A stretch of 64,000 bases of DNA from Bacteroidia bacterium (GTDB lineage: Bacteria > Bacteroidota > Bacteroidia > Cytophagales > Cyclobacteriaceae). The notes below the pieces were generated by a model that did no database searches, was not told the DNA's origin, and worked only from the letters and a program-made list of their open reading frames with translations. Location: positions 62,001 through 126,000 of the forward strand of contig JAUIAO010000003.1 of NCBI GenBank assembly GCA_030425425.1, read 5' to 3'. A program made the translations under genes and the position numbers. This document shows positions 45,472 through 50,790 of this stretch, one piece after another; position 1 is the stretch's first letter, and each line of letters opens with the position of its first letter.

Positions 45472-45548
45472 TTGTTTTAACCTTCCAGGTCCTGAAACAA
45501 GTTCAAGATGACTTGAAGGATTAAATTGTGATGATCATGTGCCATCCG

Positions 45549-45574
45549 GTCATGCTGAATTCATTTCAGCATCT
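45549..45574 (+). repeat. GTCA-type palindrome, 3' side of broken GIY-YIG gene
   Basis: A 26-bp unit: GTCATGCTGAA at the head and TTTCAGCATCT at the tail pair as a hairpin. It lies 17 bp beyond the far stop of the broken GIY-YIG gene and is the inverted partner of the unit at 45893-45918. Confidence 0.7.
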
Positions 45575-45591
45575 GGGGTGGCTATTTTAAA

Positions 45592-45873
45592 CTAGATTTC
45601 ATCAAAGAGATCTCTCAAATCTGGATTGTGTTCTTTGATGAGGTTCCATTTCTATTCTCTATGCCAGCGTTTAAGTTGTTTTTCTCTGTCAATGGCATCT
45701 GTAATGCGATCGAAGTGTTCCCAATGAAGGAGGTCGTAGCATTTATAACGAGAGGTGAATTTTCCCTGATTGTTTCTGTGTTGAAGAACTCTGGTGTAGA
45801 GGTCATTGGTTACACCGATGTACAGGACTGTTCTGTTTTTGTTGGATAGGATGTAGGTGTAGCCGGAGTTCAT
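45592..45873 (-). pseudogene. GIY-YIG nuclease gene broken by one amber codon
   Basis: Small GIY-YIG endonuclease family gene. From the ATG at 45873 the frame gives YTYILSNKNRTVLYIGVTND, with the GIY/YIG pair as YIL...YIG, then the Arg (RVLQH), the YDLLHWEHF region and the catalytic Glu in DREKQLKRWHRE. It then meets TAG at 45652-45654. Reading through that one codon continues in the same frame with KWNLIKEHNPDLRDLFDEI to a second stop at 45592, giving the full family length of about 93 codons. Relatives usually have Trp here, one base from TAG. The visible 73-residue product keeps the core but lacks the last helix. An intact relative lies at 50346-50672. Confidence 0.8.
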
Positions 45874-45883
45874 AATTAAAGAA

Positions 45884-45927
45884 GCCCCTTTCAGATACCG
45901 AAACAAGTTCGGCATGACGAAAGGGGC
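45884..45927 (-). terminator. Terminator of the M3 peptidase gene with a GTCA palindrome as its loop
   Basis: On the minus strand GCCCCTTTC (45919-45927) pairs perfectly with GAAAGGGGC (45884-45892), followed by TTCTTT. The whole interior (45893-45918) is a GTCA-type palindrome, GTCATGCCGAA to TTTCGGTATCT, giving a long composite hairpin 23 bp past the stop codon at 45950. Confidence 0.8.
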
Positions 45928-45949
45928 CTAATTTCAAATTTTATTTATC

Positions 45950-48067
45950 TTATTTAAATCCTCTTCTTTCCAATAGAGGCTCAAATTCTGGCTCTCTACC
46001 TCGGAAGCCAACATACATATCCATAGCATCTCTGGTGCCACCTTTGGATAAAATATTGTCTCTGTAAGCCTGTGCAGTAGCCTGATCAAATAGTCCATTT
46101 TCTTTGAACGCTTCGAAAGCATCAGCATCCATCACTTCAGAGTTCATGTAACTATAGTATCCTGAGGAATAACCTTCCGAATCGCTGAATGCATGCTGGA
46201 AATAACCTGTTCTATATCTCGGCGCGATAGCATCGATTAGACCGATTTTGTCCATCGCCGCTTTTTCAAACTCATTGATATCTCCTGTCAAAGGTTCGGT
46301 GATCGTGTGATAAGCCATGTCCAGGTAAGCTGCAGCCATGTATTCCACAGTCCCGAATCCCTGATTGAATGTGCCAGCTTTTTTGATCTTCTCTACGAGC
46401 TCCGTTGGCATTACCTCACCGTTTTCATAATGGAAGGCATAAAGCTCGAGCATTTCTGGAGTGAACACCCAGTTTTCCATGACCTGAGAAGGAAACTCTA
46501 CAAAATCACGAGGGGTAGAAGTGCCGGAAATGGATGGATATGTACATTCGGAAAGTAGTCCATGCAGTGCATGACCAAATTCGTGGAACATCGTAGAAGC
46601 TTCATCCTGAGAAAGTAAAGAAGGAGTTTCAGCAGTTGGTTTAGTGAAGTTTCCTACATTCACTATGATTGGAATGATATTATTACCATTGATATTGCTC
46701 TGATCACGGTAGTTATTCATCCACGCGCCACCGCGTTTGCTTCCACGGTAAAACCAGTCAGAAAGGTAGATTCCGATCAATTTTCCATTCTCATCTTTCA
46801 CGGTGTAGGTTCTCACATCGGGGTGGTATTTTGGAATATCATTCTGCTCTTCGAAGGTCAGTCCGAAAAGTTTATTAGCCAGGGTGAATGTACCTTTTAT
46901 GACATTGTCAACCTTTAGATATGGTCTGATTTCGTTTTCGTCCAGGTTGTATTCTGCCATTTTGATTTTCTCAGCATAATACCACCAGTCCCAAGGCATG
47001 ATCTCATGGTTTTGACCATCAGCTTCAGCCATGGCTTTCATTTTGTCTCGTTCTTTTTTGGCGGCTTCAATGGCTGCTGGCCATACTTTGTCCAGAAGGT
47101 TGTAGACTTTTTCTGGTTTGTTGAGCATTCTCTCCTGAAGCATGTAGTCTGCCCAGGTGTCAAAACCCAAAAGATTGGCTTTTTCTAGTCGCACATTGAC
47201 AATCTGCTTCACCAATTCTTTATTATCATTTTCGTCGTTGTTGTCGCCTCTATTGATGTAGCCTTTCTTAAGTTCCTCTCTCAATTCACGATTATTAGAA
47301 TAGGTGATGAAAGGGTAAAGGCTTGGCCGATGTGTGGTAAATACATATTTGCCTTCCTGGCCTCTTTCTTTGGCTGCTTCTGCACCTGCAGTTTTCACAC
47401 TTTCTGGTAGACCATCCAGCTGATCTTCTGTAAGTACCATTTCGAAACTATTGGTTTCGTTGAGTACGTTTTCACCGAATTCTACAGTTAGAGAGGTCAA
47501 CTTTTGATTAAGTGCCCTCATTTTGGCTTTTTCGTCTTCACTCAGTGCAGCACCTGAGCGCACAAACCCTGTGTGATAGTTTTCTAAGAGTTTTTTCTGC
47601 TCACCGGTGAGGTCAAGTTCGTCTTTTTGGTCAAACAACGTTTTGACTCTCTTATAAAAATCACTGTTCAAGTAGATGTTGTCACTATGAGCAGAGAGCT
47701 CCGGGCTGATTACTCGGGCTATTCCTTTCAGTGAATCATTGGTGTGAGCAGAAGTGAGGTTGAAAAATACGCCACTGACCTTCTTCAATAGATCACCTGA
47801 CTGCTCATATGCCGTGATGGTATTTTCGAACGTCGGTGCTTCTTCATTGCTCACTATGGCATCTACTTCTTCTAGTTGGCGCGACATGCCATCTCTAAAT
47901 GCCTGCATGTAATGCTCATCTTTGATTTGCTCAAAAGGAGGCACACCATAAGGAGTATTCCATTCCTGGAAAAATGGGTTTTCTGAAGATTCCATCGTTT
48001 CTTTTTCAGTTGTTGGTTGACAGCCTATAAAAATGACAGCTGCAAACAGGTAAAGTAATTTTTTCAT
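45950..48067 (-). CDS. M3 family metallopeptidase (peptidyl-dipeptidase Dcp-like), lipoprotein
   Basis: A 705-residue zinc peptidase. The N-terminus MKKLLYLFAAVIFIGCQPTTEKE is a lipoprotein signal with the lipidated Cys at residue 16, so the enzyme is probably anchored in an envelope membrane. The zinc motif HEFGH is seen in TMFHEFGHALHGLL (about residues 494-498), with a downstream glutamate ligand in the FPSQVMENW segment. Length matches Dcp/oligopeptidase A relatives (about 680-710). It likely removes dipeptides or degrades short peptides in the periplasm. The terminator contains a GTCA palindrome, described separately. Confidence 0.93.
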   Translation of the reverse strand: MKKLLYLFAAVIFIGCQPTTEKETMESSENPFFQEWNTPYGVPPFEQIKDEHYMQAFRDGMSRQLEEVDAIVSNEEAPTFENTITAYEQSGDLLKKVSGVFFNLTSAHTNDSLKGIARVISPELSAHSDNIYLNSDFYKRVKTLFDQKDELDLTGEQKKLLENYHTGFVRSGAALSEDEKAKMRALNQKLTSLTVEFGENVLNETNSFEMVLTEDQLDGLPESVKTAGAEAAKERGQEGKYVFTTHRPSLYPFITYSNNRELREELKKGYINRGDNNDENDNKELVKQIVNVRLEKANLLGFDTWADYMLQERMLNKPEKVYNLLDKVWPAAIEAAKKERDKMKAMAEADGQNHEIMPWDWWYYAEKIKMAEYNLDENEIRPYLKVDNVIKGTFTLANKLFGLTFEEQNDIPKYHPDVRTYTVKDENGKLIGIYLSDWFYRGSKRGGAWMNNYRDQSNINGNNIIPIIVNVGNFTKPTAETPSLLSQDEASTMFHEFGHALHGLLSECTYPSISGTSTPRDFVEFPSQVMENWVFTPEMLELYAFHYENGEVMPTELVEKIKKAGTFNQGFGTVEYMAAAYLDMAYHTITEPLTGDINEFEKAAMDKIGLIDAIAPRYRTGYFQHAFSDSEGYSSGYYSYMNSEVMDADAFEAFKENGLFDQATAQAYRDNILSKGGTRDAMDMYVGFRGREPEFEPLLERRGFK

Positions 48068-48188
48068 GTGTGAATGTTGGTTTGTTTTGATCTGTTTTCG
48101 GCACAGGGCCGCTGGAAAGTGGTAGGTGTCTTCATCATAAAAGATGAAAAAGCACCGTTTCTATTTTGATTTAGGTTGCTCTAAATAA

Positions 48189-48314
48189 CTAAAAAGCTAC
48201 TGTTCGGCCTAAGATTATTTGATCAATGGTCATAGTTTTCAATGAATTTTTCAAATACGCTAAATTATCTCGTCCTGTAAGATAGATCTGAGGTCCAAAC
48301 GCAGCAGGGCTGTA
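48189..48314 (-). pseudogene. Possible remnant of an outer-membrane barrel protein C-terminus
   Basis: A 41-codon open stretch on the minus strand (YSPAAFGPQIYLTG, ending LGRTVAF and TAG) has alternating polar/aromatic residues and a terminal Phe, as at the C-terminus of outer-membrane barrels. It is preceded at once by an in-frame TAA, and nothing upstream continues the frame. It could be a decayed gene end or chance. Confidence 0.22.
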
Positions 48315-48364
48315 TTAGCCATAAGAATGGAAATAGTGATGAAGCATTCATTTCTGGTCAGAAA

Positions 48365-48529
48365 TCAATTTTCTGACTTGTTGTGGGCGCAAGATTCACA
48401 ATATATCAATCCTTCTTCTTTGTCCACATAAGCTGTTTCTCCTACGGTGATTTCTCTTTCACAACCGTCACATAATACATCAATAGGCATTGCCTCCTCT
48501 TCGAACTTTACTTGATCAATTGCTTCCAT
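48365..48529 (-). CDS. 54-residue zinc-ribbon protein
   Basis: A small gene easily missed by length cut-offs: ATG at 48529, TGA at 48365-48367, 54 residues. It has two cysteine pairs, CDGC (near residue 20-23) and CESC (near residue 45-48), separated by TVGETAYVDKEEGLIY, the typical treble-clef or zinc-ribbon spacing. The N-terminus is acidic (MEAIDQVKFEEEAMPIDV). Two CxxC pairs and coding-like codon use support it. It is probably a small metal-binding regulator or ribosome-associated protein; function unknown. It lies in the 676-bp gap between the M3 peptidase and the aminotransferase gene. Confidence 0.75.
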   Translation of the reverse strand: MEAIDQVKFEEEAMPIDVLCDGCEREITVGETAYVDKEEGLIYCESCAHNKSEN

Positions 48530-48743
48530 CTTTTAATTTTTAAAAACAGAGGATTAAGTAATCATTAATTCTTTACTAAAAGGCTGATTTTGGTTGGCAG
48601 TAGTGCTGACAATGATCATATCACGGAACTGACTAGTTATTTGGATAATTTTGAACATCCGAGTATGAGATTATTAATCTTTCGTCCTTTTTCAATAAAC
48701 CTTGATTTTCTTCTAACTTCGTGCTTTCATTTTTGAAAAATTC

Positions 48744-50051
48744 ATGAGACAAAAGTTACTTAGGGACGGAGCGAGTGAGCTATCATATGAGATCAGGGGC
48801 ATTGTAAGGAAAGCAGAGCAGCTGGAGGATTTGGGGTATGAAATACTTTGGGAAAATATCGGAGATCCTATCCAGAAGAATCATCGGCTTCCTCAATGGA
48901 TGAAAGATATCATTGCTGGTTTGCTCTATGAGGATCATACTTATGGTTATAGCCACTCTAAGGGTGTGTTATCTACCAGAGAGTTTCTGTCTGAACTTAA
49001 TAATCGCCGAAATGGCGCTCAGGTAAGTGCGCAGGACATTACCTTTTTCAACGGACTGGGAGATGCTATTCAGAAAATCTATCAATACCTGCTGCCCACA
49101 TCTCGGGTGATAGGGCCTTCTCCAGCTTATTCTACTCATAGTTCTGCGGAAGCAGCTCATGCCAATAGTAACCCGATTACTTACAAGCTGGATCCGGAAA
49201 ATAATTGGTATCCGGATATGGATGATCTGTATAATAAGGTAAAGTACAATGCCAGTATAGTGGCGATATTGATCATCAATCCTGATAATCCGACGGGGAT
49301 GGTTTACCCAAAATCCATTCTACAGCGGATGGTAGAAATAGCCAAAGAGTTTAATCTCTTCCTGATCTGTGATGAGATCTATATGAATATCATCTACAAT
49401 GGAGCTGAGACATGTACATTGGCAGAAGTGATAGGTGATGTGCCAGCGATTTCGCTAAAAGGAATCAGCAAGGAATTTCCATGGCCTGGTGCGAGGTGTG
49501 GCTGGGCGGAGTATTATAACAGGACAAATGATCCGGATTTTTCTAAACTCTGTGATACAATTGATAATGCTAAGATGATCGAGGTGAGCTCCACCAAGCT
49601 TCCTCAGCTGGCAATACCGAGGATCATGAGTGATCCGAAATATCCCGCGTTTTTAGAAGAGACCAAAAATAAAATTGGCAAGCGAAGTGCTTATCTAAAC
49701 GAAATTTTTGCTGACGTTCCTTATGTGACTTTCAATCAGACAAATGGAGCCTTCTACAATACGATGATTTTCAAACCTGGAGTGCTCAATGAAAATCAGA
49801 AACTTCAGATTGACGATCCGAAAGTGCAGGACTTATTGGATGGCTGGTTTGCTGCAAATAGTATGACTCTGGATAAAAGATTCGTTTATTATTTGTTGGC
49901 TGCCAAGCAGGTCTGCATCGTGCCGATTTCTTCTTTTGCTTCAGACTTGCTTGGTTTCAGAATCACACTGCTAGAGGAGGATGAGGTCCTCATTACTGAG
50001 ACTTTCAGAAGGATAAAAGAAGGGGTGATAGAGTATTGTGAGTCGGTTTGA
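48744..50051 (+). CDS. PLP-dependent aminotransferase class I/II
   Basis: A 435-residue fold-type I aminotransferase of the aspartate/alanine-aminotransferase group. Key segments: WENIGDPIQ (substrate loop), INPDNPTGMVYP, the PLP-binding Asp/Tyr in ICDEIYMNIIY, and the Schiff-base lysine in SLKGISKEFPWPGARCGWA. The LKGISK pattern with GxRxGW supplies the phosphate-binding Arg. Length is slightly above typical (about 400). The true substrate is not defined by sequence; alanine or aspartate are possible. It is a single-gene unit followed by REP-like repeats. Confidence 0.92.
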   Translation: MRQKLLRDGASELSYEIRGIVRKAEQLEDLGYEILWENIGDPIQKNHRLPQWMKDIIAGLLYEDHTYGYSHSKGVLSTREFLSELNNRRNGAQVSAQDITFFNGLGDAIQKIYQYLLPTSRVIGPSPAYSTHSSAEAAHANSNPITYKLDPENNWYPDMDDLYNKVKYNASIVAILIINPDNPTGMVYPKSILQRMVEIAKEFNLFLICDEIYMNIIYNGAETCTLAEVIGDVPAISLKGISKEFPWPGARCGWAEYYNRTNDPDFSKLCDTIDNAKMIEVSSTKLPQLAIPRIMSDPKYPAFLEETKNKIGKRSAYLNEIFADVPYVTFNQTNGAFYNTMIFKPGVLNENQKLQIDDPKVQDLLDGWFAANSMTLDKRFVYYLLAAKQVCIVPISSFASDLLGFRITLLEEDEVLITETFRRIKEGVIEYCESV

Positions 50052-50083
50052 TGGTCACAAACGTGATATTTCTGGGACGGTAA

Positions 50084-50170
50084 AGACTTCTTCGGAGTGA
50101 CTTCTAAAATTGAGAGAAGCCATGTTAAAAGTAACGAAACTACCTTCATAATGTCATGCCGTAGGCATCT
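50084..50170. repeat. Inverted pair of GTCA palindromes, copy 1
   Basis: A minus-oriented unit AGACTTCTTCGGAGTGAC (50084-50101) and a plus-oriented unit GTCATGCCGTAGGCATCT (50153-50170), separated by about 51 bp. The whole 87-bp block is nearly identical to 50704-50789 on the other side of the GIY-YIG gene. Confidence 0.88.
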
Positions 50171-50231
50171 AATTAAGTTTATGATTCCTGTTTCAAGATT
50201 AACTATTCAGTAATTACTAGCAGGTCGGAAT

Positions 50232-50282
50232 AGACTCCTTCGGAGTGACTTTAAACTCAAAAGGTCATGCCGGTTGGCATCT
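50232..50282. repeat. Inverted pair of GTCA palindromes, short spacer
   Basis: AGACTCCTTCGGAGTGAC (50232-50249) and GTCATGCCGGTTGGCATCT (50264-50282) with only 14 bp between. The second unit ends 63 bp before the GIY-YIG start codon. Confidence 0.85.
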
Positions 50283-50345
50283 TTTTTTTAATCCTATACC
50301 TGTTGGTTTTCCGTTTATTATGATGTTCTCTATATTGAGAATGTT

Positions 50346-50672
50346 ATGGGGAATTATTTCGTATATATTCTTACAAACCCTAAAAAGACAGTTCTTTATA
50401 TCGGAGTGACAAATGACCTTGAACAAAGAGTCATTGAGCATTATCTAAATCGAGGGAAGCCTAAAACCTTTGCTGGTAGATACTATTGTTATAATCTGGT
50501 CTATTTTGAACGGTTTCCATACCCCATGCAAGCAATTGACAGAGAGAAGGAGCTAAAATCCTGGAGGAGATCTTTGAAGGAGGATTTAATCAATCAGGAG
50601 AATCCCGAATGGAAGTTTTTAAATTCCGAAATCATGGACTGGCCTCCAGATCAGAATGCTGCTGCGAGATGA
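50346..50672 (+). CDS. GIY-YIG nuclease family protein
   Basis: A 108-residue single-domain GIY-YIG endonuclease (UPF0213-like). The hallmark is seen as YFVYILTNPKKTVLYIGVTND, followed by Arg in QRVIEHYL, and the catalytic Glu in DREKELKSW. The C-terminal extension (about residues 85-108) is longer than in the broken relative at 45592-45873. It shares the segments TVLYIGVTNDL and AIDREK with that relative, so the two are paralogues. Such proteins are structure-specific or DNA-nicking nucleases by family; their biological role is unknown. The gene is bracketed by GTCA-type palindromes whose heads face outward, and the downstream unit starts on the last base of the stop codon. Confidence 0.93.
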   Translation: MGNYFVYILTNPKKTVLYIGVTNDLEQRVIEHYLNRGKPKTFAGRYYCYNLVYFERFPYPMQAIDREKELKSWRRSLKEDLINQENPEWKFLNSEIMDWPPDQNAAAR

Positions 50673-50689
50673 GATCCCTTCGGGATGAC
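50672..50689 (-). repeat. GTCA palindrome at the GIY-YIG stop codon
   Basis: AGATCCCTTCGGGATGAC, minus-oriented; the hairpin ATCCC-TTC-GGGAT directly follows the gene and could also act in RNA 3'-end formation. Confidence 0.8.
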
Positions 50690-50703
50690 TGGAGGGTTGG
50701 TAA

Positions 50704-50789
50704 AGACTCCTTCGGAGTGACTTTTAAATAGAGAGAAGCCATGTTAAAAGCAACGCAGCTACCTTCATAATGTCATGCCGTAGGCATCT
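50704..50789. repeat. Inverted pair of GTCA palindromes, copy 2
   Basis: AGACTCCTTCGGAGTGAC (50704-50721) and GTCATGCCGTAGGCATCT (50772-50789) with a spacer almost identical to that of 50084-50170 (shared stretches AGAGAAGCCATGTTAAAAG and CTACCTTCATAAT). It ends one base before the purU stop codon. Confidence 0.88.
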
Positions 50790-50790
50790 A

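Follow-up and report, generated by a model that had tools for sequence, protein, structure and literature searches.

Two small genes for GIY-YIG nucleases in the genome of a Bacteroidia bacterium (family Cyclobacteriaceae; GenBank assembly GCA_030425425.1) are each framed by short palindromes whose GTC tags face outward. They lie in a stretch of 64 kb (contig JAUIAO010000003.1, positions 62,001 to 126,000; G000:C10:62001-126000 in our numbering), hereafter the window, which is part of a 5.85-Mb draft genome in 121 contigs. In this study, we show that one subfamily of GIY-YIG genes and such palindromes are linked, and that this linkage is real, widespread and dedicated can hardly be doubted. 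We consider it likely that gene and palindromes form a mobile cassette resembling the REPtrons, in which repetitive extragenic palindromes (REPs) accompany a REP-associated tyrosine transposase (RAYT), and that the GIY-YIG nuclease of this cassette acts on the palindromes and probably mobilises solitary REPs.

CGTC-tagged REPs are reported from five phyla and 'apparently lack a dedicated transposase', as stated in the sections consulted here of Di Nocera et al. 2013 (PMC3733652). According to these sections, the foot is CGTC, often TGTC or CCTC, stems measure 8-9 and loops 4-5, the tail is mostly CCA, and most units are arranged as head-to-head dimers; Neisseria dRS3 (= CGTC-1) and Rickettsia RPE-4/RPE-6 are included. 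A GIY-YIG family framed by palindromes of this type is a concrete candidate enzyme for REPs described without a dedicated transposase, and a single small protein and a single oligonucleotide would suffice to test the question. If the candidate proved true, REP-like systems would have two or more origins, with unrelated enzymes at their core, and annotations such as 'GIY-YIG nuclease', 'UvrC-like' or 'excinuclease subunit C' would in many cases denote mobile elements and not repair genes. The main text of a 2025 REP survey (PMC12306157), as far as consulted, does not contain the words transposase, nuclease or RAYT. Among the papers listed in a literature search that took in few subscription papers and no preprints, none connects GIY-YIG genes with CGTC or other REPs, and a prior report elsewhere is possible.

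Results

The window genes and their palindromes

Both window genes exceed the curated cut-off of PF01541 (22.6 bits), gene 1 with 61.1 and gene 2 with 58.1 bits. Gene 2 (50346..50672, plus strand) encodes 108 aa and is intact. It has the full set of catalytic residues that the first-pass annotation of the window had ascribed to it: Y7, Y18, G20, R28, H32 and E67 are present, and Y7, Y18, R28, H32 and E67 are invariant or almost so in the aligned sets A1 and A3. We take the GIY-YIG tyrosines, the arginine and the glutamate to be the catalytic ones. Gene 1 (45652..45915, minus strand) is interrupted, because an in-frame TAG at 45652-45654 ends its frame ahead of the C-terminal part present in relatives. 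The genome-scan hit to it spans one TAG, and the span of 45592-45873 given to it earlier was not kept, since it reads through this codon. As in gene 1, a single in-frame stop is present in several strong members of the family (e.g. in G034, G040, G111, G129 and G199), likely the result of decay. The palindrome-linked subfamily has the consensus AIxREKxLKxWxRxWKxxLIExxNPxWxDL.

An AlphaFold2 model of gene 2 with 45 relatives reached a predicted local distance difference test (pLDDT) of 90.8 and a predicted template modelling score (pTM) of 0.84. In Foldseek, UPF0213 protein BH0048 was nearest to this model (E 4.5e-4), followed by Slx1 (best E 0.011) and the UvrC nuclease domain (E 0.19). A profile search of solved structures likewise placed UPF0213 first (1zg2, E 3e-7), then UvrC (0.03) and an SLX1 homologue (0.19). 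The predicted Slx1-like fold would fit an enzyme acting on hairpins or junctions.

Palindromes were searched with a strict scanner, which requires GTC, an A-T first pair, a stem of 5-14, a loop of 3-8 and a tail beginning with CT or CC, and leaves free the base before GTC, the third tail base and the lengths inside the set ranges. A relaxed scanner was written after reading the strict-negative loci described below; control tags were run through the same scanner. As proposed in the first-pass annotation, both genes lie between inverted GTC-tagged palindromes with the tags outward, which the scanners confirmed, and upstream and downstream units located in each gene's own direction give an equal relative architecture despite the opposite gene directions. 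Gene 1 is flanked upstream by the CGTC-tagged palindrome GTCATGCCGAACTTGTTTCGGTATCT (45893..45918, minus strand; stem 8 with one G-T pair, loop 5) and downstream by a GTC-tagged palindrome ending in TGAC (45549..45574, plus strand; stem 8, loop 5), both found by the scanners. The upstream flank of gene 2 is the GTC-tagged palindrome GTCATGCCGGTTGGCATCT (50264..50282, plus strand; stem 5, loop 4; scanners), and its downstream flank is AGATCCCTTCGGGATGAC (50672..50689, minus strand; GTC-tagged, stem 5, loop 3; strict scanner), which touches the stop codon. Of the 11 units that the strict scanner detects in the 64 kb, 8 cluster within about 1 kb around the two genes; 20 base shuffles of the window contain 1.5 units on average.

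Linkage of gene and palindromes beyond the genome

A tblastn search of plasmids with gene 2 matched 32 records, including Azospirillum lipoferum 4B, Sinorhizobium meliloti, Novosphingobium aromaticivorans, Sphingobium and Neisseria. These hosts are named, at species or genus level, in the consulted part of the CGTC-REP paper (PMC3733652). Ten of these records were analysed first and stretches of three more later. Among the first ten plasmid loci, six have scanner units within 300 bp (L017, L019, L020, L023, L024 and L025), L021 and L022 have units recognisable by eye, L018 contains a variant with GTC-G, and in L026 the sole unit is CCTC-tagged and lies about 180 bp beyond the end of the gene. 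A genome scan, with a query built from seven plasmid proteins whose flanks had already been inspected, yielded 579 loci. The best 80 of them were analysed, many coming from metagenome bins with possibly wrong taxon labels. By record title they span Alpha-, Beta- and Gammaproteobacteria, Bacteroidota, Ignavibacteriales, Armatimonadota, Planctomycetota (Sedimentisphaerales), Nitrospirae, Omnitrophota, several candidate Patescibacteria and others.

In the following, a gene counts as near a palindrome if the distance is at most 300 bp, and as framed if it is flanked on both sides. With the strict scanner, 49 of the 80 genes were near and 40 framed, compared with 1-5 and 0-1, respectively, for ten control tags. 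Reading of the 31 strict-negative loci revealed mostly longer loops or an A-T/A-C end mismatch; in L095 and L101 the tag is CCTC, and the hairpins of L046 and L054 bear no GTC tag. With the relaxed scanner, 71 genes were near and 57 framed (14 control tags: near 0-3, framed 0-1), and nine loci stayed negative (L044, L046, L054, L074, L084, L085, L091, L095 and L101). The union of both scanners gives 72 near and 58 framed genes. With the relaxed scanner, the density of palindromes falls from 6.4/kb at 0-150 bp to 0.08-0.09/kb beyond 2 kb.

As the first-pass annotation would lead one to expect, palindromes are enriched beside GIY-YIG genes over other genes: 58/80 GIY-YIG genes are framed vs 16/956 other genes at the same loci (union of scanners), 175 of the latter being near. 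Among genes more than 1.5 kb away, 66/721 are near and 4/721 framed. One of the 16 framed other genes is another GIY-YIG family gene, several are likely spurious frames running through palindrome arrays, and the rest directly adjoin the GIY-YIG gene. The nearest upstream unit is in plus orientation at 43 loci and in minus at 20, and the nearest downstream unit in minus at 45 and in plus at 20 (relaxed scanner); the tags mostly face outward. At 37 loci with a plus unit upstream and a minus unit downstream, both close, the median span is 374 bp.

Samples drawn by profile gave 26/30 near and 17/30 framed GIY-YIG loci in Sphingomonadales; in this comparison, which also covered Y1 transposase loci, some loci end at contig ends and gene positions are approximate. 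In Cytophagales 19/29 were near and 12/29 framed; these counts, and those of the window's own genome, add a third, looser scanner form, with control tags passed through the same scanners. The enrichment is limited to one GIY-YIG subfamily, as weaker matches from other subfamilies were near in 2/20 and framed in 0/20 cases and Y1 transposases in 0/20. Another GIY-YIG subfamily, mostly without palindromes where examined, has two or three near-adjacent copies in G151, G178, G191 and G197.

Palindrome number and gene presence

In genome-level counts, which ignore kinship, gene presence correlates with palindrome number. Among 99 Sphingomonadales genomes, the median is 20 palindromes in the 45 with a strong match, 4 in the 42 with none or a weak one and 2 in the 12 mid-scoring ones; strong and none/weak genomes differ with p 2e-7 (Mann-Whitney), and for the reversed pattern there is no difference (p 0.11). 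Among 98 Cytophagales, 8/30 strong genomes and 1/68 others hold at least 10 palindromes (p 3e-4), the pattern covering one palindrome type only. Within one genus, six genomes with the gene hold 46-212 palindromes and one without a detected gene holds 7. In Kordia (G006), 34 of 37 genomic units share the two stem types found at its gene. The idea behind the first-pass annotation that carriers of such nucleases are richer in palindromes was borne out by the medians of 20 vs 4 and by the Cytophagales counts, and it has many exceptions, given in the Discussion.

Evidence for mobility

Comparison of genomes makes it very probable that gene and palindromes constitute a mobile cassette. In genome G111, gene and both palindromes are dispersed together: the cassette occurs three times on a single contig of 3.3 Mb, with more than 1 Mb between copies and a tag-to-tag length of exactly 371 bp in every copy. 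The copies are 85-96% alike and share the same palindrome stems; a single loop base sets one copy apart from the others. Beyond the palindromes, the resemblance breaks off after 25-38 bp on the left and after 6-97 bp on the right, depending on the pair compared.

Presence and absence vary between relatives. In A. lipoferum 4B (L017, 2880-3386), a cassette lies inside the suf operon between sufB and sufC and is absent in three relatives. In Sphingobium, a cassette is located between fnrL and a response regulator gene in two strains and absent in three others. One of the sites without gene, L110 in Sphingobium TomTYG64, carries at the position of the L020 cassette one palindrome tagged at both ends, which may be a precursor or a deletion product. 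In a genome of the same genus as ours that lacks cassette 2, the two flanking genes are still neighbours with a different frame between them, and no palindrome was detected between them by the scanner. A search for the M3 peptidase in the family returned no match above 53% identity outside the genome itself. Tandem cassette copies occur in the window's own genome (L005/L007) and at L279, and the gene reaches up to 8 matches per genome.

The rest of the window's own genome

PF01541 has eight matches in the genome of the window: the two window genes, the tandem GIY-YIG pair L005/L007, L001, L002 and L004 of another GIY-YIG subfamily, and L008 in a frame of 602 aa, a UvrC by its length. L001, L005 and L007 also lie among GTC-type hairpins as judged by eye, and the scanner confirms palindromes at four of the five REP-type GIY-YIG genes, L001 being the exception. 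It found no GTC palindrome within 300 bp of L002, L004 or L008. A hand count gave 11 distinct palindromes within 300 bp of the five REP-type genes (Poisson p 5e-17 relative to the density of 0.055/kb given below, clustered units being taken as independent). In the intergenic DNA on both sides of L001 (contig C13), some hairpins start with TGTCA and end with TGACA, with tags at both ends as seen by eye, in contrast to the single tag of units at other loci.

In 400 kb (7%) of this genome from three contigs, we counted 22 GTC palindromes, i.e. 0.055/kb, and 12-32 for six control tags, so GTC palindromes are at chance level there. In the sampled part the palindromes therefore belong to cassettes and form no dispersed repeat family. 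One Bacteroidota-type palindrome pattern has 5 matches in the whole genome.

Discussion

Proposed mechanism

We propose that each window gene and its outward GTC-tagged palindromes make up a small mobile cassette of about 370-430 bp, which would be built like a RAYT REPtron with a GIY-YIG nuclease replacing the Y1 transposase. On the sequence evidence, the nuclease likely acts on its palindromes. This single-domain enzyme would recognise the tagged palindrome, probably as hairpin or cruciform, and would nick or cut at or near the GTC foot, whereupon host repair or replication would copy the bracketed DNA to a new place. The enzyme of an active gene could moreover mobilise gene-less palindromes and head-to-head dimers in trans and so give rise to CGTC-type REP populations; mobilisation of solitary palindromes in this way appears rather probable. 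The first-pass annotation had suggested for the GIY-YIG nuclease a role comparable to that of RAYTs. The flank and genome-count tests support this part, and a dispersed population in the window's genome did not appear in the 400 kb sampled.

Comparison with known systems

The cassettes resemble REPs and their inverted pairs (REPINs) with RAYT (TnpA-REP), i.e. the REPtrons, in that a gene is framed by short palindromes with a one-sided tetranucleotide foot, in that gene and palindromes form one cassette, and in that solitary units and head-to-head dimers occur elsewhere in the genome. Like a working REP/RAYT system, the gene is framed by its palindromes, cassette mobility being read from comparison only. 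They differ in the enzyme, which is GIY-YIG and not a Y1/HUH transposase (0/28 Y1 loci have GTC palindromes), and in the foot, which is GTC followed by A[TC] and usually preceded by a pyrimidine, whereas the RAYT foot is GTAG. Because both enzyme and foot fall outside the RAYT definition, we call the cassettes REPtron-like but not RAYT elements.

The palindromes at the 80 loci fit the CGTC form published in the part of PMC3733652 consulted here. Among 137 strict units, C or T precedes GTC in 131, the tail is CCA in 114, the stem measures 8-9 in 134 and the loop 4-5 in 129. The consulted sections of that paper contain no GIY-YIG link and report no dedicated transposase. They name Caulobacter crescentus among the CGTC-REP species. 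According to the consulted part of PMC1839093, this species carries three COG2827 genes described as 'UvrC-like', and an SOS box is present at one of them. The window units themselves are diverged and not classed as CGTC REPs proper because of the CT tail and the mixed base before GTC: for the eight units, C or T precedes GTC in 3/8, the stem is 8 in 2/8 and 5 in 6/8, the tail is CT and not CC in 8/8, and GTC-A is found in 8/8, as the scanner requires. In Neisseria gonorrhoeae (L259), a family gene is surrounded by 16 dRS3-type palindromes, which form an array within 2.67 kb.

Small GIY-YIG proteins of the UPF0213/YhbQ type are the nearest solved relatives both by profile (1zg2) and by fold. 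The present family differs from UPF0213 in a conserved C-terminal NPxWxDL part and in its palindrome linkage.

Rhizobial RIME elements are double palindromes with a fixed length of about 110 bp. In Rhizobium rhizogenes G014 (L301-L311), we observed 11 head-to-head palindrome dimers with a fixed length of 110-112 bp, similar to RIME in length and build and perhaps RIME. We know of no nuclease for RIME.

Observations that weigh against the proposal

Several observations speak against a REPtron-like cassette with an active GIY-YIG nuclease. In seven further genomes, the scanner found a palindrome at 10 of 21 family matches, and neither scanner found one at the other 11, four of which are weak and another of which, L289 (= L091), has a palindrome seen by eye that the scanner is known to miss. 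The linkage is therefore strong, not universal, and special to one subfamily. At the 49 loci with a strict unit, palindrome and protein distances are correlated (rho 0.39, reached in 0/2000 permutations), which counts for the proposal, as specific recognition would have this effect, but is confounded by common descent, which would have it too. Palindrome number and gene presence also come apart. At least 10 palindromes occur in 9/42 none/weak and 3/12 mid-scoring Sphingomonadales, fewer than 10 in 12/45 strong ones, and genomes without a detected gene can be rich in them (G030 with 73, G041 with 53, G079 with 40). In G014, the dimers have other stems than the palindromes at the one REP-type GIY-YIG gene detected there; by these stems the dimers are an orphan palindrome family.

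As to mobility, a fourth gene match in G111 (L268) does not align with the three dispersed copies, and of five multi-copy groups compared only G111 has the pattern of a dispersed unit. In G212/G162 several copies are alike over the entire compared stretch, the G145 pair does not align, and in G076 and G091 the alignment covers little beyond the gene or is absent altogether. A target-site duplication was not found, the gene-less sites of Azospirillum, Sphingobium and Sinorhizobium being too diverged. High genomic copy number, a trait of CGTC REPs, is not seen for the window units in the 400 kb sampled; no spread of palindromes beyond the cassettes is apparent in the sampled part of this genome, and in the window the cassette of gene 1 is interrupted. 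Finally, where the mechanism of a GIY-YIG enzyme is known, it is hydrolytic and leaves the ends unjoined, and joining would therefore need a host pathway.

Alternative explanations

The linkage could also arise from a homing parasite: the repeats would be older and spread otherwise, and a free-standing GIY-YIG homing endonuclease would cut palindromes and settle between them as a safe site. Free-standing GIY-YIG homing endonucleases such as I-TevI and the phage Seg proteins exist, and they have in common with the present family the catalytic domain and self-spreading through DNA cutting. At several loci (e.g. L017, L041 and L045), the gene stands between two complete palindrome dimers and not inside one, which would suit such an origin, as would the orphan palindrome family of G014. 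The homing endonucleases differ from the present family in that we know of none framed by palindromes, and the match of the gene 2 fold to I-TevI is weak (Foldseek E 2.7). However, with palindromes at chance level in the 400 kb sampled, the window's own genome showed no older population to invade there; moreover, palindromes travel with the gene in G111, and their number rises with gene presence. Gene-less sites were seen in Azospirillum, Sphingobium, Sinorhizobium and the same-genus genome, but they have diverged. We regard this explanation as unlikely.

A domesticated, structure-specific housekeeping enzyme that resolves repeat cruciforms, with the adjacency due to regulation or co-selection, is quite improbable. 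The branched-DNA nuclease Slx1 among the nearest folds and the SOS box at a Caulobacter COG2827 gene (PMC1839093, consulted in part) would agree with such a remover of hairpins. The gene is patchy, multi-copy, present or absent between relatives and in some copies broken by in-frame stops, which is the pattern of a mobile gene and argues against it.

It is very improbable that RAYTs or other Y1 transposases spread the palindromes with the GIY-YIG gene as a passenger, even though the genome of the window has nine Y1_Tnp matches, some fragmentary, and the spread of GTAG REPs is ascribed to RAYTs (PMC3733652, sections consulted). GTC palindromes were found at 0/20 Sphingomonadales Y1 loci and 0/8 Y1 loci of the window's genome, and Y1 is present in 21/99 Sphingomonadales genomes with no association with palindrome number (p 0.27). 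The consulted sections of PMC3733652 likewise report that CGTC repeats were not found to be linked to transposases. The flank tests and the co-occurrence tests thus both disfavour a RAYT origin. An origin of the palindromes as ordinary terminators of transcription flanking a small gene, or by chance, is scarcely credible: short hairpins do occur in intergenic DNA, but the one-sided GTC tag, the mirror orientation and the copy upstream of the gene do not fit, and the 14 control tags (near at 0-3/80), the decay with distance and the 16/956 framed other genes disfavour it.

A possible wider class of elements

There is about an even chance that the cassettes represent a class of transposable elements in many phyla, in which a single-domain hydrolytic GIY-YIG nuclease, together with host repair and with no transposase or recombinase of its own, spreads tagged hairpins. 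Such a class would explain the alpha-proteobacterial CGTC REPs and Neisseria dRS3, and possibly also the RIME of rhizobia and the RPE of rickettsiae.

Further palindromes and repeats in the window

Next to gene 1, a diverged GTC-tagged palindrome at 45487..45512 (minus strand), missed by the scanners and recognised by eye, is a second copy downstream of the gene; 45481-45512 and 45887-45918 form a direct repeat (D4, 78%). Another diverged GTC-tagged palindrome, likewise seen by eye, lies at 50084..50101 (minus strand) inside a member of the direct-repeat family D1. The strict scanner detects four additional units around gene 2, each with stem 5 and loop 3: two GTC-tagged on the minus strand (50232..50249 and 50704..50721) and two TGTC-tagged on the plus strand (50153..50170 and 50772..50789). 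The cassette of gene 2 is enclosed by a 65-bp direct repeat with its left copy at 50107..50171 and its right copy at 50726..50790, both on the plus strand (D2, 94%).

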